From positions 1-12,556 of the forward strand of contig JAHWKC010000039.1 in the NCBI GenBank assembly GCA_019348095.1: a stretch of DNA of 12,556 nucleotides, given 5' to 3'. How positions within the stretch are numbered: the first letter of the stretch is position 1; every line of letters starts with the position of its first letter. The notes beneath the pieces were generated by a model. That model saw nothing but the letters and a program-made list of their open reading frames with translations, was not told the DNA's origin and searched no databases. Source of the DNA: Pseudomonadota bacterium (GTDB lineage: Bacteria; Pseudomonadota; Gammaproteobacteria; Xanthomonadales; Xanthomonadaceae). Below, piece by piece: positions 2,947-11,689 of the stretch. A program made the translations under genes and the position numbers.

Positions 2947-2985
2947 CTGACAACCGCATGTGATTTTCATGACCGGAATATGACA
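2947..2985 (-). promoter_or_regulatory. Pho-box array upstream of the porin gene
   Basis: Read on the minus strand, four hexamers stand exactly 11 bases apart: TGTCAT (2985-2980), GGTCAT (2974-2969), TCACAT (2963-2958) and TGTCAG (2952-2947). PhoB binds direct repeats of TGTCA-like units at 11-bp spacing, replacing the -35 element. The first two units match best. The array starts about 105 bases before the porin ATG. No clear -10 hexamer could be fixed. Confidence 0.7.
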
Positions 2986-3091
2986 AAGAGCGGCGTCGAT
3001 GCGCTCGGCGCCCCGTGGCCGCGAGCTCGCCTGGAAGATTCACGACCTTCCTTCTCTGACCAGCTCGCAGGACCGGCCGGACGCCCGCCGC

Positions 3092-3130
3092 TGTCATCGC
3101 AGTGACACGCCAGCTACATCGCGCTGTCAG
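3092..3130 (+). promoter_or_regulatory. Pho-box array upstream of pstS1
   Basis: Four units at 11-bp steps on the plus strand: TGTCAT (3092), TGACAC (3103), CTACAT (3114) and TGTCAG (3125). The outer two are near-consensus PhoB half-sites and the inner two are degenerate. TGGAAT at 3141-3146 is a plausible -10 hexamer ten bases downstream. About 62 bases separate the array from the pstS1 start. The 100 bases between this array and the porin-facing one show no further elements I can name. Confidence 0.7.
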
Positions 3131-3192
3131 CAAACGCTTGTGGAATGCACGCAGGGCAGGCTTCGCCCGCATCCACTTCCAGGGGATCACCC

Positions 3193-4212
3193 ATGCGCAC
3201 CGTTCTCAAGTCCCGTCTCGCCGCGCTCGCACTGGCCGCGGCGTTCGTCAGCAACGTCCACTCCGCCGAGATCACCGGCGCCGGCGCGACTTTCATCTAT
3301 CCGCTGCTTTCCAAATGGTCGGCCGACTACCACCAGGCCACCGGCAACAAGATCAATTACCAGTCGATCGGCTCCGGCGGCGGCATCGCCCAGATCAAGG
3401 CCCGCACCGTCGATTTCGGCTCCTCCGATGCGCCGCTCAAGCCCGAAGAGCTCAGCAAGCACGGACTTGCGCAGTTCCCCTCCGCAATCGGCGGCGTGGT
3501 GCCGATCTTCAACGTGAGCGGCATCCCGGCCGGCGCGATGAAGTTGGACGGACCGTTGTTGGCCGACATCTTCCTGGGCGAGGTCACCCGGTGGAACGAC
3601 CCTCGCATCGTCGAGCTCAACGGCGGCCTGCAACTGCCGGACATGAAGATCACCGTGGTGCATCGCTCCGACGGGTCCGGCACCACCTTCAACTTCGTCA
3701 ACTACCTGTCCAAGGTCAGTCCGCAGTGGAAGGCCAGCGTCGGCGAAGGTACTTCGGTCAAATGGCCGACCGGCATCGGCGGTAAGGGCAACGAGGGCGT
3801 AGCCGCGTACGTCAAGCAGATCAAGGGCGGCATCGGTTATGTGGAGCTTTCCTACGCCTTGCAGAACCAGATGTCGTATTCGCGGCTGAAGAACGCCGCC
3901 GGCCGCTACATCGTGCCGAGCGACGAGAGCTTCGCCGCCGCGGCGGCCAGTGCCGACTGGCGCGGCGCGCAGGACTTCAGCCTGGTCATGACCGACGCCC
4001 CCGGCCCGGATGCGTGGCCGATCGCGGCGACCAACTTCATCCTGATGTACAAGCAGCCCGCCGATGCCGCGCGCTCCACGGCGGCCCGGGACTTCTTCCG
4101 CTGGGCCTACGCCAACGGCGGGCCGCAGGCGGCCTCGTTGCACTACGTGCCGTTGCCGAAAGAGCTGGTCGAGCAGATCGAGACGTACTGGACGGCCAAC
4201 CTGCAGTTCTGA
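3193..4212 (+). CDS. pstS: Phosphate ABC transporter periplasmic binding protein PstS (soluble copy)
   Basis: High-affinity phosphate receptor of the PstSCAB importer. The 339-residue product starts at the ATG at 3193, preceded by AGGGG at a normal distance; earlier in-frame starts lie in the promoter region. It has a signal peptide cut near NVHSA/E (residue 25), with no lipobox cysteine, so a free periplasmic protein is expected. Phosphate-contact motifs of the family are intact: GAGATF (Thr33, Phe34), GSGGG (Ser61), FGSSDAPL (Asp79) and HRSDGSGTTF (Arg158, Ser162, Gly163, Thr164). It is first of two tandem pstS genes and is the copy nearest the divergent Pho-box region. By eye the mature part is about 70% identical to the next gene, pointing to duplication. 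Confidence 0.95.
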   Translation: MRTVLKSRLAALALAAAFVSNVHSAEITGAGATFIYPLLSKWSADYHQATGNKINYQSIGSGGGIAQIKARTVDFGSSDAPLKPEELSKHGLAQFPSAIGGVVPIFNVSGIPAGAMKLDGPLLADIFLGEVTRWNDPRIVELNGGLQLPDMKITVVHRSDGSGTTFNFVNYLSKVSPQWKASVGEGTSVKWPTGIGGKGNEGVAAYVKQIKGGIGYVELSYALQNQMSYSRLKNAAGRYIVPSDESFAAAAASADWRGAQDFSLVMTDAPGPDAWPIAATNFILMYKQPADAARSTAARDFFRWAYANGGPQAASLHYVPLPKELVEQIETYWTANLQF

Positions 4213-4242
4213 ATCACGGGTCCTCTCTCCCTCGTGATGCAG

Positions 4243-4272
4243 GCGTACGCGGGCCTTCGGGCCCGCGTGCGC
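4243..4272 (+). terminator. UUCG-capped GC hairpin after pstS1
   Basis: CGCGGGCC at 4248-4255 and GGCCCGCG at 4260-4267 flank a TTCG tetraloop, and five more pairs (two G-U wobbles among six outer positions) extend the stem to about 13 bp. No T-run follows. It is more likely an mRNA-stabilising or partially terminating structure between the two pstS genes than a complete stop. Confidence 0.55.
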
Positions 4273-4371
4273 TTGCGGGGCCGACCCCACTTTGCCGAGG
4301 TAAAGGCGGTTCAGGTCTGGCCGGTGCCCTTTCCCGCCAAGGGTTTCGTCACGGTGGCACGTCACCACAGC

Positions 4372-4428
4372 TGTCATCACTCCGGTGGTGATGAGGCCGG
4401 TGTCATCACCATGTAACAAAAACATCAT
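4372..4428 (+). promoter_or_regulatory. Pho-box region upstream of pstS2
   Basis: TGTCAT (4401), TGTAAC (4412) and CATCAT (4423) are spaced by 11 bases, as expected for PhoB half-sites. CATACT at 4431-4436 is a weak -10 candidate. A second TGTCATCAC lies 29 bases upstream at 4372. Between the two, GGTGATGA at 4387-4394 is an exact inverted partner of TCATCACC at 4403-4410, so the box overlaps a potential 8-bp hairpin. The second pstS therefore has its own promoter. The rest of the 4213-4483 gap shows no gene. Confidence 0.65.
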
Positions 4429-4483
4429 TCCATACTCGCACCTGCCGATCCGCCGGCCGGCACCTTTCGTGATGGAGTCCTGC

Positions 4484-5575
4484 ATGAACAGCTCGTCAGT
4501 CCGACTCGCCCTGTTGTCCTTTGCCGTCGCCCTGGGCGTTGCCGCATGCTCCGGCAGCGACACAAACTCATCGTCAGCAGGCACGCCGCCGCTGCCCGGT
4601 GCCGCCACGTCGGCCGACGACCAGGTCAGTGCGCAGATCACCGGCGCCGGTGCGACCTTCATCTACCCGCTGCTGTCGAAGTGGTCGGCCGACTACAACC
4701 AGGCGACCGGCGCGCGCATCAACTACCAGTCGATCGGGTCCGGCGGCGGCATCGCCCAGATCAAGGCCGGCACCGTGGACTTCGGCAGCTCCGACAAGCC
4801 GCTGTCGCCGGAAGAACTGACCGAAGCCGGCCTGGCACAGTTCCCGTCCGCCATCGGTGGCGTGGTGCCGGTGGTCAATATCGAAGGCATCGAGCCCGGC
4901 GAGCTGCGGTTGACCGGTCCGCTGATCGCCGACATCTACCTGGGCAAGGTGACCCGCTGGAACGACCCGGCGATCACCGCATTGAATCCGGGCGTGGAGC
5001 TGCCGGACGCCAAGATCAACGTGGTCCACCGCTCCGACGGTTCCGGCACCACCTTCAACTGGGTCAACTACCTGTCCAAGGTCAGCCCGCAGTGGAAGCA
5101 GCAGGTCGGTGAAGGGACCTCGGTGAGCTGGCCGACCGGTGTCGGCGGCAAGGGCAACGAGGGCGTCGCGGCCTACGTCAAGCAGATCAACGGCTCGATC
5201 GGCTACGTCGAACTGGCCTACGCAACCCAGACCGGCATGTCCTACACCTCGATGCAGAACGCCGACGGCAACTGGGTCCAACCCAGCGCCGAGTCGTTCC
5301 AGGCCGCCGCCGCCAGCGCCGACTGGAAGAACTCGCAGGACTTCAGCCTGGTCATCACCAACGCCCCGGGCGCCGGGTCATGGCCGGTGACGGCAACCAA
5401 CTTCATCCTGATGTACAAGCAGCCCCGCGATGCCAAGCGTTCGCAGGACGCGCTCGACTTCTTCGCCTGGGCGCTGGAGAACGGCCAGCAACAGGCCCAC
5501 GAGCTGCACTATGTGCCGCTGCCCGAGCCGCTGGTCGAGCAGGTCAAGACGTACTGGGCGGCCGAGATCCAGTAA
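4484..5575 (+). CDS. pstS: Phosphate ABC transporter substrate-binding protein PstS (lipoprotein copy)
   Basis: Second phosphate receptor, 363 residues. The ATG at 4484 has GGAG six bases upstream; a longer in-frame start at 4385 lies inside the Pho-box region and is rejected. The signal peptide ends in LGVAAC with lipobox Cys22, followed by a Ser/Thr/Gly/Pro-rich tether to about residue 50. This copy is therefore probably membrane-anchored, unlike its neighbour. Binding motifs are conserved: GAGATF (Thr58), GSGGG (Ser86), FGSSDKPL (Asp104, with Lys in place of the usual Ala after it) and HRSDGSGTTF (Arg183, Ser187, Thr189). An anchored and a soluble receptor side by side suggest division of labour in phosphate capture or release. 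pstC follows after a 230-base gap. Confidence 0.94.
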   Translation: MNSSSVRLALLSFAVALGVAACSGSDTNSSSAGTPPLPGAATSADDQVSAQITGAGATFIYPLLSKWSADYNQATGARINYQSIGSGGGIAQIKAGTVDFGSSDKPLSPEELTEAGLAQFPSAIGGVVPVVNIEGIEPGELRLTGPLIADIYLGKVTRWNDPAITALNPGVELPDAKINVVHRSDGSGTTFNWVNYLSKVSPQWKQQVGEGTSVSWPTGVGGKGNEGVAAYVKQINGSIGYVELAYATQTGMSYTSMQNADGNWVQPSAESFQAAAASADWKNSQDFSLVITNAPGAGSWPVTATNFILMYKQPRDAKRSQDALDFFAWALENGQQQAHELHYVPLPEPLVEQVKTYWAAEIQ

Positions 5576-8522: not shown

Positions 8523-8595
8523 TACCTCGTGAACAGTAAGCGGCAAACTGGAAAAGCTGTCCCCCCTCACCATTGACTGTTTTCATTTGACTCCT

Positions 8596-9291
8596 ATGCA
8601 TGACCACATCGTGAAGAGCTACGACGACGAGCGGAAGCGCCTGCTCGACGAAACCCTGCGCATGGGCGAAATGGCTGCGGCCCAGCTGGAGGCGGCGCTC
8701 GACGTGGTCCAACGCCGCGACGACAAGGCCGCTGCGCGCATCATCGGCAACGACGAGGCGATTGATGCGCTGGAGCAGGAGATCAGCCACGACGTCATGA
8801 AGCTGGCCCTGCGCGGGCCGATGGCGCGCGACCTGCGCGAGATACTCGCCGCGATCCGGGTGGCCTCCGACATCGAGCGCATTGGCGACTACGCCGCCAA
8901 CGTCGCCAAGCGCTCCAAGGCGCTCAACCTGTCGCCGCCACTGCCGCAGATCAACGGCATGCACGCGATCGGCACGCTGGCGGTCCAGCAACTGCGTGAA
9001 GTGCTGACCGCCTACCGTGACAGCGACGTCGAGGCCGCACAGCGCATCCGCGCCCGCGACGCCGAGATCGACACCGCCTACACCGCCCTGTTCCGCGAGC
9101 TGCTGACCTACATGATGGAGGACGCACGCAGCATCACCCCGTGCACGCACCTGCTGTTCATGGCCAAGAACATCGAGCGTATCGGCGACCACGCCACCAA
9201 CATCGCCGAGAACGTGTGGTTCCTGGTCAAGGGCGAGGAGCAGTTGCCGCCTCGCGAGAAGCGCGACGACAGCAACACCGTCGCACCCTAG
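8596..9291 (+). CDS. phoU: Phosphate signalling protein PhoU
   Basis: Negative regulator that links PstSCAB transport state to the PhoR sensor kinase and so keeps the Pho regulon off when phosphate is plentiful. The 231-residue product has two three-helix PhoU repeats. Each carries the metal-binding motif, IERIGDYA near residues 93-100 and IERIGDHA near 193-200. The ATG at 8596 gives MHDHIVKSYD, a usual PhoU beginning; an in-frame TTG nine bases earlier is possible but less likely. No clear Shine-Dalgarno sequence is seen. TTGACT occurs twice just upstream (8573 and 8587) without a convincing -10. A hairpin after the stop closes the cluster. phoB and phoR are not in the window. Confidence 0.95.
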   Translation: MHDHIVKSYDDERKRLLDETLRMGEMAAAQLEAALDVVQRRDDKAAARIIGNDEAIDALEQEISHDVMKLALRGPMARDLREILAAIRVASDIERIGDYAANVAKRSKALNLSPPLPQINGMHAIGTLAVQQLREVLTAYRDSDVEAAQRIRARDAEIDTAYTALFRELLTYMMEDARSITPCTHLLFMAKNIERIGDHATNIAENVWFLVKGEEQLPPREKRDDSNTVAP

Positions 9292-9319: not shown

Positions 9320-9350
9320 CGGGCGGGCCGATGACGGCCCGCCCGCTTTC
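9320..9350 (+). terminator. Rho-independent terminator after phoU
   Basis: CGGGCGGGCC at 9320-9329 pairs with GGCCCGCCCG at 9336-9345 over a GATGAC loop. It is followed by CTTTCATTT. Ten GC pairs and a T-rich tail make this the most terminator-like structure in the window. It separates the phosphate genes from the metallopeptide operon. Confidence 0.8.
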
Positions 9351-9556: not shown

Positions 9557-10006
9557 ATGTCAAAGCACAACAACAAGCCCGTTGCCCTCGCCGCCGCCCT
9601 GATCGGTGGTCTCGCGTTGTCATCGTCCGCGTTCGCGATGAGCGACCTGACCGCCGGCTACATGCTCGGCGCCCAGCACGCCGAGGCGGCCGAGAAGGCA
9701 ACCGAAGGCAAGTGCGGTGAAGGCAAGTGCGGCGGTGAGGCCAGCCACTCCGCCGATTCCTTGGACAGCGATCACGACGGCAGCATCTCGCAGGCCGAGT
9801 TCGCGGCCGCCCACGGCGGCGACGCCAGCAACTTCGGCAGCTACGACGCCAACAGCGACGGCATGATCAGCGCCGACGAGCTCAAGGCCGCGCACGAGGG
9901 CAAGTGCGGCGAAGGCAAGTGTGGCGATGCCAAGGCCGAGCCAACCGCGGCCAAGGCCGACATGGAAGGCAAGTGCGGTGAAGGCAAGTGCGGCGGTTCG
10001 GCCTGA
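9557..10006 (+). CDS. hvfA: HvfA-like secreted RiPP precursor with EGKCG cassettes and two EF-hands
   Basis: The 149-residue product starts at an ATG with AAGGA eight bases upstream. It has a Sec-type signal peptide (cleavage likely after SSAFA, residue 27). Six cysteines occur only in three EGKCGEGKCG cassettes: Cys53/58, Cys117/122 and Cys140/145. Between the first and second cassettes lie two canonical 12-residue EF-hand loops, D70-E81 (DSDHDG) and D97-E108 (DANSDG). In Haemophilus HvfA, EGKCG cysteines are converted by HvfB/HvfC to oxazolone/thioamide pairs that bind copper; related bufferins do so in other bacteria. The DUF692 and DUF2063 genes directly behind make the same fate very likely here. 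The EF-hands suggest extra calcium binding or a structured core. Product function (copper buffering or defence in the periplasm) is inferred. Confidence 0.85.
   Translation: MSKHNNKPVALAAALIGGLALSSSAFAMSDLTAGYMLGAQHAEAAEKATEGKCGEGKCGGEASHSADSLDSDHDGSISQAEFAAAHGGDASNFGSYDANSDGMISADELKAAHEGKCGEGKCGDAKAEPTAAKADMEGKCGEGKCGGSA
9704..9997 (+). repeat. Threefold 33-bp coding repeat (EGKCG cassettes)
   Basis: The 33 bases at 9704-9736 recur without change at 9965-9997. A diverged copy lies at 9896-9928. Each encodes EGKCGEGKCG plus one residue. Exact identity of the outer copies, separated by EF-hand sequence, points to recent duplication or gene conversion of the cassette, not slow convergence. Confidence 0.85.
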
Positions 10007-10040
10007 GCTGTCCAGGCTGAAGCTGGTGGCCTCGCGCCAC
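9998..10040 (+). promoter_or_regulatory. Two hairpins between the precursor and enzyme genes
   Basis: An 8-bp stem with a 7-base loop spans 9998-10020, overlapping the precursor stop codon. GTGGC at 10026-10030 pairs with GCCAC at 10036-10040. There is no T-tract. Such structures after RiPP precursors can stabilise the precursor mRNA or limit read-through, giving more peptide than enzyme. Confidence 0.4.
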
Positions 10041-10056
10041 GCCCAGAGTTGAACCA

Positions 10057-10932
10057 ATGAACGAGCTGCGTCGGATCCAAGATGGCGCGGCCGGTCTCGG
10101 CTTGCGGCGGGCCCTGTTGGGCCCGCTGCAGGCGGCCGGACCGGAGGATTTCGATTTCCTCGAATGCGCCCCGGAAAACTGGATCGGCGTCGGCGGCCGC
10201 TTCGGCGAGGCGTTGGAAGCGCTGTCCGCGCGCCACCCGATGACCTGCCATGGGCTGTCACTGTCGCTCGGCGGCTTCGCCCCGCTGGACCAGACCTTCC
10301 TCGCGCGCGTGCGCCGGTTCCTCGACCGGCATCGGGTAGCCCTGTACAGCGAGCACCTGAGCTACTGCAGCGACGATGGCCAGCTCTACGACCTGCTGCC
10401 GATCCCGTTCACCGAGGAGGCGGTCCGCCATGTGGCGGCCCGCATCGGCCAGACACAGGACCTGCTCGGCCGCCGCATCGCGGTCGAGAATGTCTCCTAC
10501 TACGCCGCGCACCCGCTCGGAGCGGATGCCCGGGCGATGAGCGAGATCGACTTCGTCAACGCGGTACTGGCCGAGGCCGACTGCGACCTGCTGCTGGACG
10601 TCAACAACATCTACGTCAACGCGGTGAACCATCGTTACGACGCGCAGGAGTTCCTGGCCGCGCTGCCGGGCGAGCGCGTGGCCTGCATCCACGTGGCCGG
10701 CCATTTCGACCAAGCCGACGACCTCAAGGTCGATACGCACGGTGCACCGGTGAAAGACGCGGTGTGGGCGCTGCTGGCCGCCGCATACCGGCATTTCGGC
10801 CCGCGTCCGACCGTGCTAGAACGCGACTTCAACTTCCCGCCGTACGCCGAGTTGCTCGGTGAACTCGGCACCGTGCGCCGTCTGCTGCGCGACAACGCGA
10901 CCGGCTCTGTTCCACGCCATGCCAGCGCCTGA
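10057..10932 (+). CDS. hvfB: DUF692 multinuclear non-heme iron oxidative enzyme (MNIO), HvfB/BufB-like
   Basis: The 291-residue cytoplasmic protein has the TIM-barrel signatures of DUF692. [10 protein letters not shown] (His65), SEHLSY (His100), VENVSYY (Glu144), [10 protein letters not shown] (Asp181 and Asn183/184), HVAGH (His212, His216), DTHG (Asp226, His228) and ERDFNFP (Glu255) together cover the iron ligands expected by analogy with MbnB. These enzymes use two or three irons and oxygen to oxidise cysteines in a peptide. The substrate should be the EGKCG precursor 50 bases upstream. Its stop overlaps the following DUF2063 gene by 14 bases. The ribosome binding site is weak (a CAGAG-like sequence), which fits lower expression than the precursor. 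Exact ligand assignment is by analogy. Confidence 0.92.
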
Positions 10933-11689
10933 CCGGAAGGCCACGCTGCGCGAACAGCAGCTTGCATTGACCCGCCACCTGCGCGACCCCGACCACCACC
11001 CGGCGCCAGGAGGGATCGAGGACCGGCGCCTTTCGGTCTACCGCGAGCTGCTGTTCAACAACATCGAAAGCCTGCTCGCGGGCAATTTCCCGGTGATCCG
11101 CAGACTGCTGGGGGACGCGCGGTGGCGGATCCTGGTGCGCGATTTCTACCGCGACCATCGCTGCCAGACGCCGCTGTTCCCGGAGATCGCGCGCGAATTG
11201 CTGCGTTACCTGGAAACCCGCATGGATGCGACCGACCCGCCCTTCCTGTACGAGCTGGCGCATTACGAGTGGGTCGAGCTGGCGCTGCAGATATCCGAGG
11301 CGAGCGCTGCAGACACTGTGCACGACCCGGCGGGTGATCTGCTCGAAGGCGCGCCGGTGCTCTCGCCGCTGGCCTGGCCGCTGGCCTATCATTGGCCGGT
11401 GCACCGGCTCGGTCCGGACCACCAGCCGGCCACACCACCGGACACGCCGACGCTGTTGCTGTTGCGCCGCGAGCCCGATGGCAACGTCCGCTTCTCCGAG
11501 CTGAGTCCGCTCGCATTCCGGCTGCTGCAGCGGCTCGGCGAAGTACCCGAGCTCAGCGGTCGGGAGCATCTGCAAGCACTCGCACAGGAGGCCGGCGCCG
11601 GCGAGGTTGCGGATTTCATCGCGCACGGCCATGCGCTGCTGCGACAGATGCACGCCAGCGCAGTGGTGCTCGGCACCGCCCAGACGTAG
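10919..11689 (+). CDS. hvfC: DUF2063 partner protein (HvfC/BufC-like)
   Basis: This is the accessory protein that works with DUF692 enzymes, probably presenting the precursor. The ATG at 10919 overlaps the end of hvfB by 14 bases and gives 256 residues; an earlier in-frame start would lie deep within hvfB. The N-terminal domain shows the DUF2063 pattern: [29 protein letters not shown], then [25 protein letters not shown], then [16 protein letters not shown] second domain with a mixed strand-helix pattern runs from about 135 to 245, where [18 protein letters not shown] lies. The overlap implies translational coupling and a fixed ratio to the enzyme. A DoxX-like hvfD or an ECF-sigma pair, often found with such operons, is not seen next to it. 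Confidence 0.9.

Follow-up and report, generated by a model that had tools for sequence, protein, structure and literature searches.

Why should the precursor of a putative copper-binding peptide carry two EF-hand loops between its cysteine cassettes? The precursor gene lies in a 12,556-nucleotide stretch of DNA (contig C332; the whole stretch is called the window here) from the 2.7 Mb genome, 72% complete, of a Lysobacter-type bacterium. On the + strand of the window, the order pstS-pstS-pstC-pstA-pstB-phoU is followed by a three-gene operon and then by an RNase T-like gene; pstA was named by its position and translation, without a family search, and the RNase T-like gene was called by eye. 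The tandem pstS pair (3145-5575) scored over the PstS cut-offs for each copy. The final gene of the pst cluster, phoU (8587..9291, + strand), was assigned by an NCBI family match and by synteny in relatives.

The first gene of the operon (9557..10006, + strand) was identified from its open reading frame and from Pfam and NCBIfam matches, and encodes an HvfA-like precursor of 149 residues with six Cys; all of its features lie on the same strand. A Sec-type signal peptide, assigned by eye with cleavage after AFA, covers residues 1-27 (9557..9637), and a leader with a GY motif connects it to cassette 1 (EGKCGEGKCG, residues 50-59, 9704..9733). The EF-hand loops, recognized by Pfam match and predicted fold, are DSDHDGSISQAE at residues 70-81 (9764..9799) and DANSDGMISADE at residues 97-108 (9845..9880). 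The cassette sequence EGKCGEGKCG recurs as cassette 2 (residues 114-123, 9896..9925) and cassette 3 (residues 137-146, 9965..9994), so that the EF pair is sandwiched with one cassette on its N-terminal side and two on its C-terminal side. The six EGKCG units start at residues 50, 55, 114, 119, 137 and 142, and Cys53, Cys58, Cys117, Cys122, Cys140 and Cys145 are all located within them, which bears out the six candidate cysteines of the preliminary description.

Against a cut-off of 25.9 bits, Pfam EF-hand_5 matched the precursor with 34.6 bits; NCBIfam KCGExKCG_twice (NF050137) matched it in three stretches with 52.7 bits (cut-off 19.5). None of 20,000 shuffles of the protein contained two EGKCG units or two EF loops. 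The profile matches and the shuffles confirm the earlier account of a precursor with three cassettes and two canonical EF loops. The score against the strict HvfA equivalog NF050188 (45.4 bits) fell below the cut-off of 95, and the protein is therefore an HvfA-like chimaera rather than a strict HvfA. A match to the XopAW calcium-binding effector family NF041410 (35.1 bits, under the cut-off of 120) was confined to residues 65-115, which correspond to the EF pair.

The second gene (10057..10932, + strand) encodes an HvfB-family MNIO (DUF692) peptide maturase, with 417.9 bits against NF003818 (cut-off 360), 337.5 bits against PF05114 and a 238-bit alignment with PDB 3BWW. Iron-site motifs, including LDVNNIYVN and VDTHG, are common to the window MNIO and 3BWW. 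Residues N175, D242 and H244 of HvfB were reported to be essential (PMC13419390), and we infer that the NN and DTHG motifs correspond to them, a mapping made by position and not by alignment to HvfB. The third gene (10919..11689, + strand) encodes the HvfC-family partner (DUF2063 and NGO1945_C), which scored 313.4 bits against NF050145 (cut-off 142) and also matched PDB 3DEE; its start is most likely the ATG at 10919, overlapping the 3' end of hvfB. The MNIO stayed under the cut-offs for the Buf1 bufferin maturase BufB (NF050167, 271.2 bits, cut-off 310) and for methanobactin MbnB (TIGR04159, 42 bits, cut-off 325). With the HvfB, HvfC and cassette families all over their curated cut-offs, the operon is a true captophorin/oxazolin HvfABC-type member, and both its HvfABC-like character and the order of DUF692 and DUF2063 genes proposed earlier hold.

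How common is this arrangement? A profile search for the spread of EF-hands combined with EGKCG had been suggested in the preliminary description, and our survey found the precursor in 81 of 149 family genomes, in 93 loci with a single ORF taken per locus. These comprised 58 sandwich, 14 C-terminal-EF, 20 EF-less and one truncated form. From 248 named relatives, the best 80 were examined together with one viral contig; these 80 comprised 30 sandwich, 30 C-terminal-EF and 20 EF-less precursors. Architecture and loop counts in both surveys rest on loop patterns, laxer for the family loci, and favour recognizable loops; the two surveys probably share genomes, and their counts were not summed. Within the named set, the sandwich form occurred in Lysobacteraceae (21), Pseudomonadaceae (4), Rhodanobacteraceae (2) and unplaced genomes (3), and 26 of the 30 C-terminal-EF forms belonged to Pseudomonadaceae, with some in Lysobacteraceae. 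Lysobacter prati carries both forms at separate places (L116, L188). By loop pattern, each of the best 120 of 3285 homologues carried one or more EF loops, and in 119 of them cassettes were counted on both sides. Among the matches listed, the closest protein was from Lysobacter sp. D1-1-M9 (93% identity over 91% of the query). Matches at E 1e-7 were rarer in wider samples, with the precursor in 27 of 200 order-level and 14 of 369 class-level genomes; for the EGKCG domain on its own, the count at class level was 76 of 274.

Sandwich forms also occurred beyond the order, in several gammaproteobacterial families. The examined flanks of some of these loci (L068, L069, L072, L073) gave no MNIO match, and their precursors might be modified in trans. 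Cassette numbers differ widely among relatives, and a pattern search found the leader GY motif in 48 of 53 EF precursors and 33 of 35 EF-less ones. Several individual records deserve mention. The IMG/VR viral contig (L195) encodes a precursor with cassettes followed by a partly degenerate EF pair, with no MNIO match in the stretch examined. At the phoU locus of relative G101 (L222), the precursor has no cassettes after the EF pair, and the search match there includes one in-frame TGA. A record labelled Bacillus subtilis SK7B5 (L167) combines phoU with an EF-less, Lysobacteraceae-like hvfABC, and is probably contamination or mislabelling.

The codons of the EF pair bear on its function. In an alignment of 36 family loci made without a loop filter, pN/pS was 0.05 at the calcium-ligand positions (1, 3, 5 and 12) versus 1.35 at positions 2, 4, 10 and 11, a contrast that is indicative only because synonymous sites are near saturation and the loci were picked by similarity to the window protein. 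In the same loci, G6 showed zero replacements. Because the ligand codons are strongly constrained, metal binding by the pair is probably real, and on this sequence evidence the EF pair is probably a genuine metal site. Positions 7 (pN/pS 1.09) and 8 (1.04) were unconstrained, which counts against the mechanism proposed below. Cassette codons pooled over these loci gave 0.50, and the last cassette alone showed no replacement in a loop-pattern-based set of 37 loci.

The geometry around the pair is also conserved, as counted in loci with at least one strictly canonical loop per pair. Nearly all sandwich loci had two strictly canonical loops (56 of 58 family, 30 of 30 named); among C-terminal-EF loci this held for 8 of 14 (family) and 26 of 30 (named). 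The last Cys of the N-terminal block preceded loop 1 by 5 residues in sandwich loci (45/58 family, 22/30 named) and by 8 residues in C-terminal-EF loci (13/14 family, 30/30 named); the distance downstream of loop 2 varied more than this N-side gap. We must also note that the window precursor has a gap of 11 residues between cassette 1 and loop 1 instead of the usual 5, which counts against the mechanism. In the AlphaFold2 model, whose overall pTM of 0.38 denotes low confidence, the EF pair alone folded (residues ~66-115, pLDDT ~85) and the cassettes had pLDDT below 50. Foldseek matched the model to calmodulin-like lobes with E values of 0.07 or higher.

The chemistry of the cassettes is known from relatives. 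HvfABC-type products have been assigned as 5-thiooxazoles, with copper binding and a diiron cofactor described (PMC13097082, PMC13419390), and this assignment supersedes the oxazolone/thioamide pairs of the preliminary description. The mass test given there, a loss of about 4 Da per Cys, is still valid, as 8 Da were lost for two repeats (PMC13097082). EGKCG peptides take up as many as four Cu and aggregate with it, and Pro within the core repeats was not accepted by the maturase (PMC13097082). PMC13097082 leaves it unclear whether the mature EGKCG product is a single polypeptide or is cleaved into pieces. Thiooxazoles and copper binding are thus established for relatives, and by analogy would be expected here.

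We propose, with a probability of roughly 0.55, that the EF pair was inserted between the Cys cassettes of a peptide that is modified by HvfBC, exported by Sec, folded by Ca2+ and used as a copper buffer. In the cytoplasm, HvfB (a mixed-valent diiron oxidase) and HvfC would convert up to six Cys to copper-binding 5-thiooxazoles. The cytoplasm is poor in calcium, and the EF pair would stay unfolded there, leaving the chain flexible and export-competent. Once the Sec pathway has carried the modified precursor out, the EF pair would take up two Ca2+ in the calcium-rich periplasm and fold up as a compact core that keeps cassette 1 ahead of loop 1, with cassettes 2 and 3 past loop 2. The result would be a soluble, ordered copper buffer that is less prone to aggregation. 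For the window peptide itself, modification, calcium binding, folding on export and the effect on copper are all inferred from these relatives and from the conserved loops.

An extension of this proposal, which we put forward tentatively and at clearly less than even odds, is a two-metal RiPP. Folding by Ca2+ on export would be an assembly step, and the core would place thiooxazole pairs on both sides, so that the copper-loaded product is monomeric and the polypeptide intact. If the Ca2+-locked core keeps the product monomeric, the mature product would therefore be an intact polypeptide and not diced cassette peptides. Such a peptide would join a genetically encoded, folded metal site and enzyme-installed metal ligands in one RiPP. 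A calcium core between cassettes would also be a natural construct for setting a folded core against aggregation, and a whole chain against a cut one.

The same EF pair can be read in other ways. It could be a calcium sensor, in which bound Ca2+ changes how copper is held or released, or passes a signal to a partner, and so couples copper buffering to calcium. In favour of it, the loops are canonical and conserved, and the idea was raised in the discussion of PMC12452194. The inter-loop linker, though, evolves freely (pN/pS 0.89 in the 36 family loci), and we consider a sensor unlikely. Periplasmic calcium is usually high, and a permanently loaded structural site is therefore favoured over a sensor. 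Another reading treats the pair as an acidic, flexible spacer between cassettes, for which metal binding would be irrelevant. Cassette number does vary widely, and EF-less precursors with extra cassettes take the place after phoU in 9 of the 20 EF-less family loci, so that the pair is dispensable in some relatives. This reading is weakened by constraint that is confined to the calcium ligands and G6 and spares the remaining loop and the inter-loop linker, and by a loop-to-loop spacing of 27 in 49 of 58 family sandwich loci; it now appears distinctly unlikely. The pair might also bind a lanthanide or other trivalent ion instead of Ca2+, in the manner of lanmodulin, since lanmodulin was matched weakly (in the PDB at E 0.004; 18.4 bits against NCBIfam NF053806) and the loop spacing of 27 or 24 is close, compared with 24 in the lanmodulin alignment. 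The NCBIfam score is nevertheless far under the cut-off of 135, and close spacing is not diagnostic, because loops 24 residues apart also occur in other EF-hand proteins (L004, L005) that this genome encodes. A fragmentary match to a PQQ alcohol dehydrogenase in the window genome (168 bits, short of the cut-off) would fit such a site, but among the 149 family genomes that enzyme was over the cut-off in only 16, of which 3 had the precursor, versus 78 of the other 133. We regard a lanthanide site as very improbable.

The position of the operon invites a further explanation, namely that it belongs to the Pho response as a neighbour of pst-phoU. In the family survey, 57 of 58 sandwich loci had phoU upstream on the same strand, as did 1 of 14 C-terminal-EF loci, 9 of 20 EF-less loci and the truncated locus; these counts are lower bounds where the examined sequence stopped short, and the distance to phoU was about 4 kb in one EF-less locus. 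Such conserved order may reflect plain vertical inheritance. The gap between phoU and the precursor gene contains a terminator-like hairpin (9320..9345, + strand), which is near chance (one found versus 0.8 expected). Two Pho-box-like sites with at most 3 mismatches occur in the window (2969-2986 and 3091-3108), versus 0.62 expected and with at least two also in 24 of 200 shuffles; they fall in the gap that separates the first pstS from the divergently oriented phosphate-porin gene, and none with at most 3 mismatches was found before the precursor gene. In 17 of 58 sandwich family loci, moreover, the operon has an ECF-type sigma gene as a neighbour; within the window genome, the best relative of this gene (59%, 205 bits) sits on a different contig (L196, 797-1825). 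A phosphate link thus seems improbable. A search of PMC12452194 for phoU gave nothing, and among the open-licence PMC papers listed, phoU occurred only in a Shewanella genome report.

The window genome contains a second MNIO locus (L001, 1100-2950), with a bufferin-1-like precursor of DUF2282 type, as judged by eye, an MNIO and a partner gene. Beyond position ~2950 the DNA of L001 looks foreign (actinobacterial-type, by eye), and that contig may be chimeric. Like the window operon, it sets an MNIO-type maturase beside a secreted, Cys-containing precursor. Its precursor, however, lacks EGKCG and EF-hands, and its MNIO is 40% identical to that of the window.

Calmodulin-like lobes are a looser comparison. 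The loop spacing of calmodulin is 36, and the EF pair of the window is shorter, with loops 27 apart; the incoming helix of its first EF-hand is a single turn in the AlphaFold2 model, unlike that of a calmodulin-like lobe.

Closer to the window are HvfABC/oxazolin and the captophorins (FonABC fontiphorin and gonophorin; PMC13097082, PMC13419390), which likewise combine a signal peptide, an HvfB-family MNIO and an HvfC-family partner. HvfA has three AEGKCGEGKCG motifs (PMC13419390), equal to the three EGKCGEGKCG cassettes and six Cys of the window precursor. The window differs from HvfABC by the EF pair between cassettes 1 and 2. It also has no DoxX/HvfX gene beside the operon, and no match to this family was found across the whole genome including the window, at 72% completeness.

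The nearest system is the Buf_EGKCG|EF-hand_5 chimaera published in 2025 (PMC12452194), the only one among the open-licence PMC papers listed that covers EF-hands and MNIO together. It shares with the window EGKCG cassettes, two EF-hand_5 matches, MNIO and DUF2063 partners and the lack of 17-residue repeats, and a role in calcium homeostasis or signalling was suggested for it. Its EF-hands are described as fused C-terminal to the EGKCG domain, whereas in the window cassettes stand on either side of the EF pair. The C-terminal-EF form also has another cassette-to-loop spacing and occupied another place in our family survey. The sandwich layout and its usual place beside the phosphate-uptake genes were not found in the descriptions of the family consulted here. 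The window precursor is a sandwich variant of the published chimaera class.
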